Below, one piece after another: positions 1-34,465 of a stretch of 34,465 nt of DNA (position 1 is the stretch's first letter; each line of letters opens with the position of its first letter). The stretch spans positions 1 through 34,465 of the forward strand of contig JAPOOU010000075.1 in the NCBI GenBank assembly GCA_026713245.1. The letters are read 5' to 3'. The stretch is from Chloroflexota bacterium (GTDB lineage: Bacteria; Chloroflexota; Anaerolineae; Aggregatilineales; Phototrophicaceae). The position numbers and the translations under genes were made by a program. The notes beneath the pieces were generated by a model. It saw only the letters and a program-made list of their open reading frames with translations, made no database searches and was not told the origin of the DNA.

Positions 1-186
1 CAAGTACCGAGGAGGGCATAAGAGTCACCCTTCCCCGATGCTTCGCTGAGGAGCGGGCAGTTTTCGACAGGCAGTTGATGGCAAGGCGTCGGCGTTCAAT
101 GAAGCGCAATTCGTCCTCAAATGCTGGGAAGATGCCCTCATTTTGCCCCCTTTTTAGGTAACAGTATAGATAGAGTATGGATTCGT

Positions 187-203
187 GGGGGGGGGGTACC
201 CCC
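187..203. repeat. G10 homopolymer run with C5 partner
   Basis: Ten consecutive G residues at 187-196 are followed by TA and five C residues. Positions 192-203 read GGGGGTACCCCC, a perfect palindrome. The run is unusual for the window and could be a site of slippage or of assembly error. Confidence 0.8.
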
Positions 204-393
204 TCCCCAGATCGGAAGCTGAGGACAGGCCAGGTTGACAGCGGCAGGCTGTCGGCAGGAAACCGGGAAATTCTGTGGCGATTGCGGACGAGCCAAGGGT
301 AGCGCAGGGCGCGTAGACACAGCCCTTCGACACAGCCCTTCGACACTGACCGTTGACTTTGAGCGCCGGCCGCCCCTCCAGTATTTCGTCATA

Positions 394-480
394 AGCCGCT
401 CGGCGCGTAAGCGGCGAACAGATTCCAGGAATGTCGCGCTCAGACAGAATAGTAAGCCTTCTCGTCGCATGAGAGATCGG
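394..480 (+). repeat. Dispersed intergenic repeat, copy 1
   Basis: The segment shares blocks in the same order with 26447-26540 (plus) and 32493-32583 (minus): 'CCGCTCGGCGCGTAA', then 'CGGCGAA', then 'TGTCGCGCT', then 'AAGC' followed by 'TCTCGTCGCATG'. All three copies are between genes and about 80-95 bp long. It may be a small non-autonomous mobile element or a REP-like element. No transposase is present near it. Confidence 0.7.
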
Positions 481-500
481 TTCGGTTTCAGTTTGAAGAT

Positions 501-603
501 TGTCCGTCTTTGTCCATTTTCGGACAAAACAAACTCTTTTTCGGACATTAGCGCCTCTTTTTGGACAATGTCGCTTGGTTTGGGCCGGGCGCGGGGCTTG
601 AAA
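501..603 (+). repeat. End repeat A with phased GTCC/GGAC boxes (left copy)
   Basis: Five GTCC or GGAC cores start at 502, 512, 522, 543 and 563. Their spacings are 10, 10, 21 and 20 bp, close to whole helical turns. The segment from 509 matches the reverse complement of the right window end (34370-34465) over about 95 bp, including 'TTTTTCGGACATTAGCGCC' and 'GGACAATG'. A second matching block follows near 663-700 ('CTATATGGTCGCG', also at 34246-34290 reversed). The spaced boxes could bind a protein or form RNA hairpins; function unknown. Confidence 0.7.
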
Positions 604-766
604 AGCGACGGCCCAAGCCGGGCGGCTGCGGATTCTCGGTTGTGGCGCACTGTCGAATGATACAGCAAGGCGGGGAGAAAAGGGCGGCTATATGGTCGCG
701 GTTTCGGCACAGAGTCGCGGGCTAGCGGGAGGGGCAGCGCGTCAGTTGGCAAAAGGTGTCAGCTCC

Positions 767-18671: not shown

Positions 18672-19826
18672 ATGTCTGAGCAAAGTAGACCCGGCAGCGA
18701 CCGCGTAGTTCTCAATGTAGACAACCTGCGCATTCATTACGCGACCCCACAGGGCGATGTCATCGCCGTCAGCGATATCAGCTTTAAGTTGTACGAAGGC
18801 GAGACGCTCGGTTTGGTCGGGGAATCGGGCTGTGGCAAGTCGACCACAGCCTATGGCATTCTGCAATTGGTGCAGCCGCCCGGCTACATCGTGCATGGCA
18901 GCATTGAAGTCGATGGCACCGAGGTGCTGAACCTGATGGAAGAGGAGTTGCGCAAGTTCCGTTGGACTGGCTTGTCGCTGATCCCGCAAGGCGCTATGAA
19001 CTCGCTGAACCCGACCATGCGCGTCAAAGACCAGGTCATAGATGTGATCGAATCGCACGAAGGCAAGGCGAATTATCAATCGTTCAGAGAACGCCTCAAA
19101 GCATTCTTGCGGAAGATCAGGCGGCCAAGGCGAAAAGAGCCGTTCAGAAATTTCCTCGCTGAATGGCGCCGGAATTTGATGCTGCTCTTGCGTTACGAAC
19201 CGCTCAAAGAGCGCATCTTCGACTTGTTTCAGGCCGTCGGTCTGCCAAATCGCATCTACAATATGTACCCCCACGAACTCAGCGGCGGGATGAAGCAACG
19301 CGTTTGCATCGCCATGGGCGTGGCGCTGCATCCGACGGTCGTGATTGCCGACGAGGCGACGAGCGCGCTGGATGTGGTGGTGCAGCGGATCGTGGCGCAG
19401 ACCCTGGTGGAGGTGAAAGACGAAATCGGCGTTTCCTTGATCGTCATCGGCCACGATATGGGCTTGCTGGCGCAAATCGTCGATCGCATCGCGGTGATGT
19501 ACGCTGGCAAAATGGTCGAGATCGCGCCAGTGGAAAACATCTATGCCAATCCGCTTCATCCCTATACGCAACTGCTCATTGATTCCATCCCGTCGATCAA
19601 AGAGCGCAAACCCTTGAAAATCACCGAAGGCATCACGCATGATCCGCGCAATCCACCTTCGGGCTGCATCTTCCGGTTGCGCTGCCCCTTCGCCTGGGAA
19701 CATTGCGCCGTGGAAGAACCATCACAGATCATTGTGGAAGAAAAGCACGAAGTTGCTTGTCATTTATTCGACGAGCAATTTGAAGAAAGGAGGTCCAATG
19801 CCTTCGCCACTATTGCAAATTCGTGA
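18672..19826 (+). CDS. ABC transporter ATPase, DppD/OppD type, with insertion
   Basis: This 384-residue cytosolic ATPase powers the importer. Seen: Walker A 'GESGCGKST' (50-58), Q-loop Gln106, signature 'LSGGMKQ' (203-209), Walker B 'VVIADE' (223-228), the switch His261, and the C-terminal oligopeptide-ATPase extension with four Cys ('GCIFRLRCPFAWEHC' and a later 'ACH'), which in relatives can hold an iron-sulfur cluster. Odd: between the Q-loop and the signature there is an insertion of about 45 residues (roughly 132-178), very basic ('FLRKIRRPRRKEPFRNFLAE'), longer than in DppD. It would sit in the helical domain that touches the permease or the membrane. The 3' end overlaps the next gene by 29 nt. 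Confidence 0.92.
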   Translation: MSEQSRPGSDRVVLNVDNLRIHYATPQGDVIAVSDISFKLYEGETLGLVGESGCGKSTTAYGILQLVQPPGYIVHGSIEVDGTEVLNLMEEELRKFRWTGLSLIPQGAMNSLNPTMRVKDQVIDVIESHEGKANYQSFRERLKAFLRKIRRPRRKEPFRNFLAEWRRNLMLLLRYEPLKERIFDLFQAVGLPNRIYNMYPHELSGGMKQRVCIAMGVALHPTVVIADEATSALDVVVQRIVAQTLVEVKDEIGVSLIVIGHDMGLLAQIVDRIAVMYAGKMVEIAPVENIYANPLHPYTQLLIDSIPSIKERKPLKITEGITHDPRNPPSGCIFRLRCPFAWEHCAVEEPSQIIVEEKHEVACHLFDEQFEERRSNAFATIANS

Positions 19827-22329
19827 CGCTACCAAGATCTATTCTGCGGGTGGATTTATAGGCGGCAGCAAGAATTCAGTCGTCGCGCTCGATAATTTTA
19901 ACATGACTATCGCCGAATCCCCGGCGACTATCACGACAATCGCCGGGGAAAGCGGCAGCGGCAAAACGACCCTGGCGAACCTGGTCCTCGGTTTCATCAA
20001 GCTCAGCTCGGGCAATATCATCTTCGACGGTGAAGACATCACCGACATGACCAATGAGCAGCTGAAAGTATACCGCCGCAATGTGCAGGCGGTCTTTCAA
20101 GATCCTTTTGGCGTCTATAATCCCTTTTATCGCATCGACCACGTTTTTGATCTCGTCAACAAGCATTTCAGCCTGTCGGACAATCAGAGCGAATATCGCG
20201 ATATGGTGGAAGCCGGGCTGAACGTTGTCGGCTTATACGGCGAGGATGTGTTGCGCAAGTACCCGCACCAGTTGAGCGGCGGGCAACGGCAGCGCATCAT
20301 GATGGCGCGCGCTTATATGATCAAGCCGCGTTTGATCGTGGCTGACGAACCCGTCTCCATGGTGGACGCCTCGCTGCGCGCGTCGATTCTGGATGCTATG
20401 CTGCGCCTGCGCGACGATCACAACATCTCCTTCCTCTATATCACGCATGACTTGAGCACGGCCTACCAGATCGGCGACCAGATCTACATGCTCTATCAGG
20501 GCACGACTGCCGAACGCGGCAGCGCTATGGACGTCATTGACGCGCCGCAGCACCCTTATGTGCAACTCTTGATCGATTCGGTACCCGTGCCCGACCCGAC
20601 CGATAAATGGGATGTCAACATTTCGCTGCCGAGCGAAGAAGAGATGCGCACGGCTGCCTCGAAGGGCTGCCGCTATTATCCGCGTTGTCCGCATCGTATG
20701 GACAAATGCCTGGACGAGCAGCCGCCACTGTTCAAGATGGACAAGCCAAAGCACGAAGCGGCTTGCTACTTGTACGAAGAGAATGACATCGCGCCGATTG
20801 AGCCGCCTGTTTTGGTCAACCGGCCGATCAGCGACGCCATTGCCGCGCCCAGCCGCCCGCGTTTGCCTTGGGTAGCGGCGGCACTGGTCGTTGCCGCCTT
20901 TGCGATTGGTCTTCTGATTGGCTCGCAACAAGAACCGGAGACCATCGTTGAAGAGGTGGTCGTGGAGGTAACGGCTGTACCCGCAATCGCTACGGCAACG
21001 GAGGCGCCTGCCGAAACCACCGTGCAGATAGCCGCGCCCGCCGCCGCCGATGAAGACGAGATTGAATTCCGGTTGCCCCCCGATGGCGCGACGGACAAAG
21101 GCGCTCTAGCGCTCAACGTAGTGACGGAAGACGAAATCCAGGCTGGCGACGAGAAACATCGCTACACCTTCGACGCGGTTGACGGACAAGTGGTAACGAT
21201 CAAGATTCGCACCGGCGGCAGCGGCTTAAGCGGCGGCAACCTAAACTCGCCCTATGGCACGGTCTACGGGCCCGACAGCGAGTTTGTGGCGGCGCTTGGC
21301 GATACGGCAGTCCGCCCCAGACGCAGCTACAACGCGCCACTCACACTACGGTCGGGGACTTACACGATTATCGTGGGTCCCGCCGAAGTGGCGCGTTATG
21401 GCCTCGTGGGCGACGCGCCTTATCAGGTGGAAGCAGAAGGCGACGAACCGGTTATAAGGGCGGCGCCCGAACCGACGGCGCTACCCCAACCCGACTTCGT
21501 TTTGTCGCCCGCCGGCGCGACCGATAAGGGCGCTCTAGTCATCAACGTGGTGACGGAAGACGAAATCCAGGCTGGCGACGAGAAACATCGCTACAGCTTC
21601 GCCGGGACCGCCGGTCAAGAAGTGACGGTTAAGATCCGCACTGGCGGCAGCGGCTTAAGCGGCGGCAACCTCAACTCGCCCTATGGCACGGTTTACGGGC
21701 CCGACGGCGAGTTTGTGGCGCCGCTTGGCGACACGGCAGTCCGCCCCAGACGCAGCTACAACGCGCCACTCACATTAACATCGGGTACTTATACGATCAT
21801 CGTCGGACCGGCCGAAGTCGATCGCTATGGATTGGTCGGCGATGCTCCCTATCAGGTAAGCGTGGAAGGCGATGAACCGGCGCCCGCGCCAGAGCCGACA
21901 GCCGTGCCGGAAATCGATCCGACGCCGCTGCCGCAGCCGGACCTCATCCTGTCGCCCGATGGCGCCAAGGATAAAGGCATGCTGAGCATCGATGAGGTGA
22001 CGAGGGACGAAATTGCCGATGCTGACGATAGACACAGTTACCGCTTTGAGGCGACTGCCGGGCAACTCGTATCAGTCAGAATTCGGACGGGGGGCAGTGG
22101 CTTAAGCGGCGGCAATCTCAACTCGCCTTACGGCACGATCTATGGACCGGACGGCAAGTTTGTAGCGCCGCTGGGCGATACGGCAGTCCGCCCCAGACGC
22201 AGCTATAACGCGCAGCTCACATTGAAGTCGGGGCTTTACACCATCATCGTTGGCTCGGCGCAAGTGGAGCGCTACGGCCTGGTTGGCGATGCCGAGTATC
22301 AGATCACGGTTGAAAGCGCAGATGGCTAG
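19798..22329 (+). CDS. DppF-type ATPase fused to membrane segment and three beta repeats
   Basis: This 843-residue protein starts from the ATG at 19798, which has a perfect 'AAAGGAGGT' site inside the end of the upstream gene; the 53 extra residues of the ORF track are not needed. Residues 1 to about 335 are a DppF-type ATPase: Walker A 'GESGSGKTT' (50-58), Q-loop Gln101, signature 'LSGGQRQ' (about 159-165), Walker B 'LIVADE' (about 179-184), and the Cys-containing extension 'CRYYPRCPHRMDKC'. Then come one membrane helix (about 357-377), a 'VVVEVTAVPA' linker, and three repeats of about 120-130 residues (419-548, 562-691, 711-843), each with 'GGSGLSGGNLNSPYGT' and 'AVRPRRSYNA'. The repeats resemble pre-peptidase C-terminal type beta domains. 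With one helix they would lie outside the cell while the ATPase is inside. The stop is followed by a terminator. Confidence 0.88.
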   Translation: MPSPLLQIRDATKIYSAGGFIGGSKNSVVALDNFNMTIAESPATITTIAGESGSGKTTLANLVLGFIKLSSGNIIFDGEDITDMTNEQLKVYRRNVQAVFQDPFGVYNPFYRIDHVFDLVNKHFSLSDNQSEYRDMVEAGLNVVGLYGEDVLRKYPHQLSGGQRQRIMMARAYMIKPRLIVADEPVSMVDASLRASILDAMLRLRDDHNISFLYITHDLSTAYQIGDQIYMLYQGTTAERGSAMDVIDAPQHPYVQLLIDSVPVPDPTDKWDVNISLPSEEEMRTAASKGCRYYPRCPHRMDKCLDEQPPLFKMDKPKHEAACYLYEENDIAPIEPPVLVNRPISDAIAAPSRPRLPWVAAALVVAAFAIGLLIGSQQEPETIVEEVVVEVTAVPAIATATEAPAETTVQIAAPAAADEDEIEFRLPPDGATDKGALALNVVTEDEIQAGDEKHRYTFDAVDGQVVTIKIRTGGSGLSGGNLNSPYGTVYGPDSEFVAALGDTAVRPRRSYNAPLTLRSGTYTIIVGPAEVARYGLVGDAPYQVEAEGDEPVIRAAPEPTALPQPDFVLSPAGATDKGALVINVVTEDEIQAGDEKHRYSFAGTAGQEVTVKIRTGGSGLSGGNLNSPYGTVYGPDGEFVAPLGDTAVRPRRSYNAPLTLTSGTYTIIVGPAEVDRYGLVGDAPYQVSVEGDEPAPAPEPTAVPEIDPTPLPQPDLILSPDGAKDKGMLSIDEVTRDEIADADDRHSYRFEATAGQLVSVRIRTGGSGLSGGNLNSPYGTIYGPDGKFVAPLGDTAVRPRRSYNAQLTLKSGLYTIIVGSAQVERYGLVGDAEYQITVESADG
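21052..22329 (+). repeat. Three near-identical repeats in the ATPase fusion gene
   Basis: The repeat units begin near 21052, 21481 and 21928. Units 1 and 2 share a 46-bp exact match (21121-21166 and 21550-21595), offset 429 bp, and the block around 21305-21346 recurs at 21734-21775 and again near 22178. Such DNA-level identity points to recent duplication or gene conversion. Confidence 0.85.
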
Positions 22330-26446: not shown

Positions 26447-26540
26447 CGGCCGCTCGGCGCGTAACCGGCGAAAAGGCCCCAGGAATGTCGCGCTTGCGCA
26501 TAATCGCAAGCCTTCTCGTCGCATGCGCGACGCGGTTTAC
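26447..26540 (+). repeat. Dispersed intergenic repeat, copy 2
   Basis: It fills the gap between nanE and the next oxidoreductase gene. It has the shared blocks 'CGCTCGGCGCGTAACCGGCGA' (in part), 'CCAGGAATGTCGCGCT' and 'AAGCCTTCTCGTCGCATG'. In this copy CTTGCG (26493-26498) and CGCAAG (26505-26510) form a clean hairpin. The ribosome site of the next gene starts right after it. Confidence 0.75.
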
Positions 26541-32422: not shown

Positions 32423-32780
32423 GGTAGATCCTCCTTGAAACTAACGAAAATGATTTGACCTTACAGTGGCTTGCCGGATGACTCAGCACCTGTTTATGTA
32501 AACCGCGACGCTCATGCGACGAGAGCGCTTACTATAAGGCATGAGCGCGGCGGGGCTGTTCGCCGGTTACGCGCCGAGCGGCTACTTAACGGTACTTTTT
32601 CATCGCGATAAATCAGACGGATTATAACGTTACAGTTGCCGATCCGCAATTCCCGCGCTCGTCAATATGATATGTGTGGCGGCCAAGCCTTTTGCGAAAT
32701 TGACCGACCTTGCTAAACTTTTGGGACGAAGTAGTGGCAACTTGTCAAACGCCAATTGAGCAGGGTCACGAGGAATTCGA
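32423..32780. other. Divergent intergenic region with repeat copy 3
   Basis: This 358-bp stretch separates the importer's binding-protein gene from the oxidoreductase gene. It contains a copy of the dispersed repeat and AT-rich stretches that may hold promoters, for example TATAAC near 32624 and TAAACT near 32714 on the plus strand, without convincing -35 boxes. I see no small gene in it. Confidence 0.5.
32493..32583 (-). repeat. Dispersed intergenic repeat, copy 3
   Basis: On the minus strand it has 'AGCCGCTCGGCGCGTAACC', 'GGCGAACAG', 'CGCGCTCATGC', 'TAGTAAGC' and 'TCTCGTCGCATGAGCG' in the order of copies 1 and 2. CGCTCATGC (32509-32517) and GCATGAGCG (32539-32547) are perfect 9-bp inverted arms 21 bp apart, so this copy can form a hairpin. 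Confidence 0.7.
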
Positions 32781-33806
32781 ATGAATGACGGGATTGTGAA
32801 CGTAGGCGTCATCGGGACAGGCATGATCGGCAGTTTGCACGCCGGGATTTTGTCGGGCCGCATAAATGGCGCCCGCGTCGTCGCGGTGATGGACCTTGAC
32901 GGCGATCGCGCTGCGGCGGCAGCGGCTAATTGTGGCGGCGCGCGCGTCTTTGCCGACGCCGGTGCGCTCATCGAGGCCGCGGACGTCGACGCTGTCCTGA
33001 TCGCCAGTCCGGACGCCTTCCACGCCAAGGGAGCGCTGGCCTGCATCGCCGCTGGCAAGCCGGTGCTTTGCGAGAAACCGATGGCGACCACGCGCGCCGA
33101 TGCCGAACGCATACTCCGCGCCGAGATAGCGGCCGGGCGCCGGCTGGTGCAGGTCGGCTTCATGCGCGAGTATGATCGCGCCCACAGAGCGCTGCTTGAT
33201 CTGTTGCGAAGCGGCGATATCGGCCGGGCGCTGCGCTTCAGAGGCATTCATATGAACCCCTACCGTTCGAGCCACGCAACAGTCGCTACGGTAATCGTCA
33301 ATTCCCTTATTCATGACATTCATTCGGCGCGATTCATGATGGGCGCGGAGATCACCGAAGCCTTCGTGCGCTGGGTGCCGGCGATCCCGAAAGATGCGCG
33401 ATCCGCCCGCTACGCGATCATTCACATCAGCTTCGATAGCGGCGCCATCGGAACGCTGGAATGGAGCGGCGACTCCGGTTACGGCTATGAAGTTGAGGTC
33501 GAGATCACCGGTGAAAATGGCGCGGCGGGGACCACCGGTGTCCACAGCCCGATATTGCGGCAGGGCGGCACACGGTCTCAAGCGATCACGCCGGATTGGC
33601 CCGATCGCTTCTTTGACGCGTACGTGGACGAGCTGGCGGCTTGGACAGGCTCGGTTTTGGCGGGACAAGCGACAGGTCCTTCGGCATGGGACGGCTATAT
33701 GTCCCTCGTCGTGGCTGAGGCCTGCATCAAGTCAACCGAGTCGGGTCAACCGGAACCGGTTGCTGGCATGGAACGCCCGGCGATGTATTTACCGCGCGGC
33801 GCGTAA
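32781..33806 (+). CDS. Inositol 2-dehydrogenase-like oxidoreductase (Gfo/Idh/MocA)
   Basis: This 341-residue protein is an NAD-dependent oxidoreductase close to myo-inositol 2-dehydrogenase (IolG). Seen: 'VGVIGTGMIGSLHAG' (GxGxxG), 'DAVLIASPDAFHA', the catalytic 'LCEKPMATT' (EKP), 'QVGFMREYDRAHRALLDLL', which is the IolG-type 'vGFMRrfD..y' mark, and 'IHDIHSARFMMGAEI' with the catalytic Asp/His pair. It begins at an ATG with 'GAGGAATTCGA' in front. It is divergent from a sugar importer. The stop codon TAA lies in a piece of the dispersed repeat ('GGCGCGTAACCGGCGA'), so the last residues 'PRGA' may be repeat-derived. The substrate may be inositol or another cyclic polyol or sugar. Confidence 0.92.
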   Translation: MNDGIVNVGVIGTGMIGSLHAGILSGRINGARVVAVMDLDGDRAAAAAANCGGARVFADAGALIEAADVDAVLIASPDAFHAKGALACIAAGKPVLCEKPMATTRADAERILRAEIAAGRRLVQVGFMREYDRAHRALLDLLRSGDIGRALRFRGIHMNPYRSSHATVATVIVNSLIHDIHSARFMMGAEITEAFVRWVPAIPKDARSARYAIIHISFDSGAIGTLEWSGDSGYGYEVEVEITGENGAAGTTGVHSPILRQGGTRSQAITPDWPDRFFDAYVDELAAWTGSVLAGQATGPSAWDGYMSLVVAEACIKSTESGQPEPVAGMERPAMYLPRGA

Positions 33807-33860
33807 CCGGCGAATCACCCGACCGCGCTCACAGCAGAAAGTGCAAGGAAGTCATGCGAC
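33793..33860 (+). repeat. Dispersed repeat, partial copy 4 at the gene end
   Basis: 'GCGCGGCGCGTAACCGGCGAA' matches the start of copies 2 and 3 nearly exactly; the rest ('GACCGCGCTCAC', 'GTCATGCGAC') is weaker. It overlaps the last codons and the stop of the oxidoreductase gene. Confidence 0.5.
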
Positions 33861-34245: not shown

Positions 34246-34465
34246 CACTCGCGCGACCATATAGTCGCCCCTTTCTCCCGCCTTGTGATATCCTTTCCTT
34301 GCGCCGCCATCGAAAACCCGCGTCCGGCAGGCCTCGATCTGCCCGACGCCGCTCGCCGCTCGTCAAACCCGTTTCCAACCCTGCGCGCGGCTCAAACCGA
34401 GCGGCATTGTCCAATAAGGGCGCTAATGTCCGAAAAACTATTTCTTTTGTCCGTTTTCGGACAAA
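34246..34465 (-). repeat. End repeat A with phased GTCC/GGAC boxes (right copy)
   Basis: On the minus strand this matches the left copy: 'TTTTTCGGACATTAGCGCC', 'GGACAATG', and further on 'CTATATGGTCGCG'. GTCC/GGAC cores start at 34409, 34428, 34449 and 34459, spaced 19, 21 and 10 bp. The end TTTGTCCG-TTTT-CGGACAAA (34446-34465) is a perfect palindrome. The window stops here, so the element may continue. Confidence 0.7.

Follow-up and report, generated by a model that had tools for sequence, protein, structure and literature searches.

A helically phased GTCC/GGAC box array dispersed in a Chloroflexota genome as a putative binding array for an HTH protein, with likeness to REPIN-RAYT systems

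In REPIN-RAYT systems (REPtrons; PMC8049555, PMC6006769), short non-autonomous units with inverted repeats occur in many intergenic copies per genome, a transposase-like gene bears the repeat, and several repeat types can be present in one genome; the box arrays described here are like them in all these respects. MITEs and other miniature mobile elements (review PMC10969869) are short, non-coding and dispersed, with empty sites in relatives, and in this they are like the 0.6-kb element B that carries some of the arrays. The N-terminal HTH of the protein considered below resembles HTH_Tnp_1 of the IS3/IS66-type accessory HTH proteins (PF01527), though weakly; one orthologue is above the Pfam cut-off. 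Small terminases of phages, e.g. SPP1, combine an HTH with oligomerisation helices and have a pac site inside their own gene. The HTH protein is similar to them in having an HTH followed by putative oligomerisation helices and a putative recognition site within the gene of the DNA-binding protein itself.

The window, i.e. the whole analysed stretch of 34,465 nucleotides from a Chloroflexota bacterium (own genome G000; 4.87 Mb, 300 contigs), was found to contain two arrays of boxes (Table 1). On the plus strand, the first has GTCC cores at 502 and 512 and GGAC cores at 522, 543, and 563 (spacings 10, 10, 21, 20), in exact agreement with the sequence-only reading made earlier of this DNA. Its further statement that the copy at the right end keeps 19, 21, and 10 was confirmed by GTCC cores at 34409, 34428, and 34449 and a GGAC core at 34459. 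TGTCCG alone shows no enrichment across the window (23 observed against 19.1 expected), and the signal lies in the clustering. The array module recurs across G000 beyond chance, with E-values down to 1e-16 and at least 51 places matched by the array profile R1, which was built from sequence only and scored up to 150 candidates per genome. A 221-bp query gave at least 42 matches in G000, a part of which concern repeat A alone. Both window arrays are members of this dispersed population.

Table 1. Coordinates of the elements and arrays in the window (strand of the arrays: sense strand).
Feature	Position	Strand	Basis and remarks
Dispersed element B (~0.6 kb), bears the first array	85..705	-	Coverage by other copies rises and falls there; ends approximate
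Element B, second copy, 5′ part only, runs off the contig end	34252..34465	+	Inverted repeat I8
Repeat A (83 bp), separate dispersed repeat inserted in the first window copy of B, outside the array	394..476	-	Also present elsewhere in the window
Box array, first copy	501..567	-	Sequence; sense (minus strand) GTCC-20-GTCC-21-GTCC-10-GGAC-10-GGAC; R1 profile match G000:C64:493-555
Box array, second copy, incomplete at the contig end	34409..34465	+	Inverted repeat I2

Array copies are dispersed into intergenic regions either alone or as part of larger pieces, for example element B or a truncated 5′ part of the HTH gene. The last form is represented by a repeat family in G025 consisting of decayed copies of the 5′ part of that gene. 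In the own genome, a 0.6-kb copy of element B (L023:2364-3008) separates two genes that are nearly contiguous in G008, G017, G021, and G032, and because of this empty site the copy is regarded as an insertion. No terminal inverted repeats were seen when the ends of element B were compared by eye, nor did the 0.6-kb element show a target-site duplication, the empty sites in G017 and the other genomes having diverged around the junction. The L023 copy extends up to the start codon of the gene that follows, and its sense 3′ end and that of other own-genome copies contain a conserved promoter-like TATCTATACTGTTAC stretch. Several array copies, among them the second one in the window, sit at contig ends, as expected because repeats break assembly. 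Besides the position given in Table 1, repeat A (~83 bp, GCCGCTCGGCGCGTAACCGGCGAA...CTTCTCGTCGCATG) was found at 26449-26530, 32511-32583, and 33792-33831 of the window and in many own-genome copies. The window also contains three 300 bp direct repeats with 74-86% identity (21064-22239) within an ORF at 19813-22329.

A DNA search of 61 genomes gave matches in one genus only, which consists of uncultured Anaerolineae (14 genomes including the own genome); the genomes compared throughout are MAGs. A scan of GTDB species genomes detected 45 stretches, 44 of which were in Anaerolineae/Chloroflexi MAGs; the sole Bacteroidales stretch comprised only the central part of the array. No match was found in the viral contigs searched, and a viral origin of the arrays was rejected on this ground and on the lack of phage neighbours of the HTH gene. 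Among the dispersed arrays of the GTDB scan, the GTCC-GTCC spacing was 10 in 44 of 44 (in part a product of the search pattern, which allowed only 10 or 11), the next GGAC was at +21 in 36 of 44, and extra boxes were present at -40 and +51. A further GTCC was located 10 bp upstream of the array in L098. At 39 short type I sites in related species, where flanks are mostly unrelated, extra boxes at -21/-20, +31..33, and +50..52 shared the helical phase of the anchor (resultant at 10.5 bp 0.61, background 0.09); with so few positions, a 9-bp period fits these boxes as well (0.58). At +21, type I carries GGAC and type II GTCC, i.e., this box changes its orientation in place.

The likely cognate of the array is a ~220-aa transposase-type HTH protein, the gene of which bears an array in its linker codons. 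The product consists of an N-terminal HTH, a linker, and a C-terminal helical hairpin. No catalytic domain (DDE or other) was found in it, and for this reason the protein may not copy anything alone. In an AlphaFold model (mean pLDDT 65.6), linker residues 63-99 are disordered and the array codons fall there; fold searches with this low-confidence model gave nothing significant. The linker codons of G017 read TTG TCC GAA AAA AGT ATT TCT TTG TCC GCC AAA CGG ACA ATG TCG GAC AAA (spacing 21, 11, 10). In distant orthologues, an inverted repeat is kept at the same codons, in some with other letters, and is perfect over 9-13 bp in many. It is CTGTCCG..CGGACAG in G001, TATGGCCGA..TCGGCCATA followed by CGGCCA at +11 in G029, and CCGCCGA..TCGGCGG followed by GGCGGCA at +11 in G002. 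The repeat rarely arose in synonymous-codon shuffles: for 9 of the 21 genes p<=0.008, whereas several distant genes were not significant (these p values ignore shared ancestry). Linker residue pairs were shown to covary among the orthologues (S/D to A/A, L/R to M/I), joint changes that would not be predicted from protein function alone. The genes of G009, G011, G014, and G032 had no clear internal array, although dispersed arrays are present in those genomes. A more distantly related HTH gene from another genus of the same family (L163, G121) has an inverted repeat in this part of the linker that is perfect over 12 bp (TTTTATGGCGGC/GCCGCCATAAAA).

We consider it about an even chance (probability roughly 0.5) that the phased array is a putative binding array for this ~220-aa HTH protein, dispersed as non-autonomous units in a REPIN-RAYT-like way. 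The boxes would form a helically phased multi-site array, to which an oligomeric HTH protein may bind along one helix face with one HTH per GTCCG/CGGAC box. The array inside the HTH gene would give autoregulation, the protein being predicted to bind its own linker codons, and copying of the arrays probably depends on the HTH protein as that of REPINs does on RAYT.

The distribution of gene and arrays was compared across genomes, with gene presence defined by profile hits below about 1e-45. Of the 17 genomes with a full-length HTH gene, 16 had at least two arrays, as did 2 of the 17 without it (Fisher p=2e-6, not tree-corrected). G008 and G019 contain arrays, and a full-length HTH gene was not found in them; G033 contains the gene and no arrays. 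The outer position is C/G at most G001 and G004 sites and A/T in G031, matching the gene of each species. An apparent common locus of G001 and G031, at which a gene of the same length ends 45 bp away, bears each species' own letters, with an imperfect left arm in G001. Letters common to gene and sites would also be explained by recent copying within each species. Two adjoining arrays that differ in their box letters (GTCCG in one, TGCCG in the other) were observed in L318 (~1980 on the plus strand) and in L326. A second HTH-gene paralogue in G021 (C88) matches the TGCCG letters, and together with the TGCCG array this suggests parallel gene-site pairs within one genome.

The dispersed arrays are mostly intergenic and situated 150-400 bp from gene starts (distances are approximate, as genes were called by a simple codon-usage method); in 39 of 49 cases (hand tally, p=4e-5) their sense strand is directed towards the gene. 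This placement would be expected if the arrays were operators for the HTH protein or another regulator, selected near promoters and carried along by larger repeats in some species, an explanation that we regard as unlikely. It is also in line with orthologous array sites at a histidine phosphatase (G001, G004, G019), at PhyH (G001, G004, G021, G025), and at epimerase/Sua5, where the arrays of G001 and G004 are 95% identical and the flanks 52-60%; some sites are common to near relatives though the surrounding DNA is hardly alignable. However, conservation is narrow (PhyH in 4 of 33 genomes, phosphatase in 3 of 30 genomes examined), the genes downstream of the arrays have no function in common, and over ~57 bp orthologous sites resemble each other no more than non-orthologous ones do, even in the spacer letters, which indicates copying. 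Copying is favoured over a conserved regulon because conservation across the genus is narrow and the arrays of the closest species diverge nearly as fast as their flanks. A conserved PhyH or histidine-phosphatase regulon was rejected, conservation being limited to small species groups. In G025/G013, the phased pairs found upstream of the phosphatase were attributed to chance. A transposase beside the arrays was also discarded, the homologous 'ORFs' there being repeat DNA read in frame. An effect of the arrays on neighbouring genes is possible.

It is improbable, in our view, that the functional form is an RNA or single-stranded DNA hairpin as in REP/REPIN, in which the boxes are the arms of a stem and not a double-stranded site. 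On the question of ALTERNATIVES, strong folds were predicted (z -2.4 to -5.2), and the arms covary in orthologues of the HTH gene, both of which agree with a hairpin. A stem, however, does not require one box to be repeated directly at 10-11 bp, and type II breaks two of seven type I stem pairs while keeping the box position, which argues against one conserved hairpin, with another nested stem being possible. The window had no Rfam match at gathering score, and a known structured RNA was rejected.

The own-genome statistics come from searches and from stretches that total 378 kb. In these stretches, 68 TGTCCG/CGGACA pairs at a distance of 8-100 bp were counted where 17 were expected, and their resultant at 10.5 bp was 0.70; after masking of the array family and the HTH gene, 14 pairs against 12 expected remained, with a resultant of 0.18. 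Since the genome-wide 10.5-bp periodicity is gone after masking, the spacing spreads by descent. Periodicity of the boxes throughout the genome, which the sequence-only reading had put forward as the test of its proposal, thus vanishes together with the family, and the window copies descend from one dispersed element. A genome-wide helical code was rejected on the same result, and the nucleoid protein proposed as an alternative found no support. In 23 own-genome copies (22 dispersed and one in the HTH gene), the cores were shown to be the most conserved columns, with a mean identity of 0.88 compared to 0.76 in the rest of the array and 0.69 in the flanks (p=3e-5). The box spacing is apparently still constrained despite its spread by descent. 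A plain repeat without present function, its spacing inherited from one ancestral element, is the least probable explanation: it would account for all own-genome periodicity coming from the array family, for the common copies with degraded boxes (a subfamily of which was also amplified), and for array divergence between close relatives nearly as fast as that of the flanks, but not for the conserved cores, for extra in-phase boxes at sites with unrelated flanks, or for inverted repeats in coding sequence that persist beyond synonymous expectation. The idea of boxes on one face of the helix for a cooperative DNA-binding protein therefore stands in part: the phase is kept across two populations with different flanks, a box flips in place, and arrays co-occur with the array-bearing HTH gene, but the family copies arose by descent and the binding itself is presumed.

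Compared to known systems, element B differs from MITEs in having no visible terminal inverted repeats and in that no parent transposon was found; a classical MITE was rejected on the absence of terminal inverted repeats. The ten neighbouring genes at nine HTH loci were metabolic or unassigned, with no phage, transposon, or packaging gene among them. A terminase/pac system was rejected, there being no linkage to a large terminase or packaging genes at these loci; the HTH gene also differs from small terminases in its lack of adjoining phage genes, in its many dispersed sites, and in a similarity below threshold. From the IS3/IS66-type accessory proteins it differs by another C-terminal part, no catalytic domain found, and tested neighbours that are not transposases. 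As in REPIN/RAYT, short inverted repeats are dispersed between genes. The Y1/HUH transposase PF01797 had no match in six of ten array-bearing genomes tested (G001, G004, G009, G018, G019, G025) and only weak matches of 24-30 bits, within 640-655-codon open frames, in the other four, and a REPIN driven by a RAYT, which is defined by its Y1 transposase, was rejected. In contrast to REPIN-RAYT, the candidate gene codes for an HTH protein and has the repeat within its coding sequence and not beside it, and the unit is a multi-box helical array; the system as a whole would work like REPIN-RAYT. We tentatively suggest, as a possibility short of an even chance, a RAYT-less REPIN-like system in which a transposase-derived HTH protein with the array in its dual-coded linker spreads array copies and the letters drift jointly across species. 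If true, this would be a second, unrelated case in which a transposase-like gene of the chromosome maintains short repeats as a population in bacterial genomes, and the species would form a natural series along which protein and DNA site seem to change in step.
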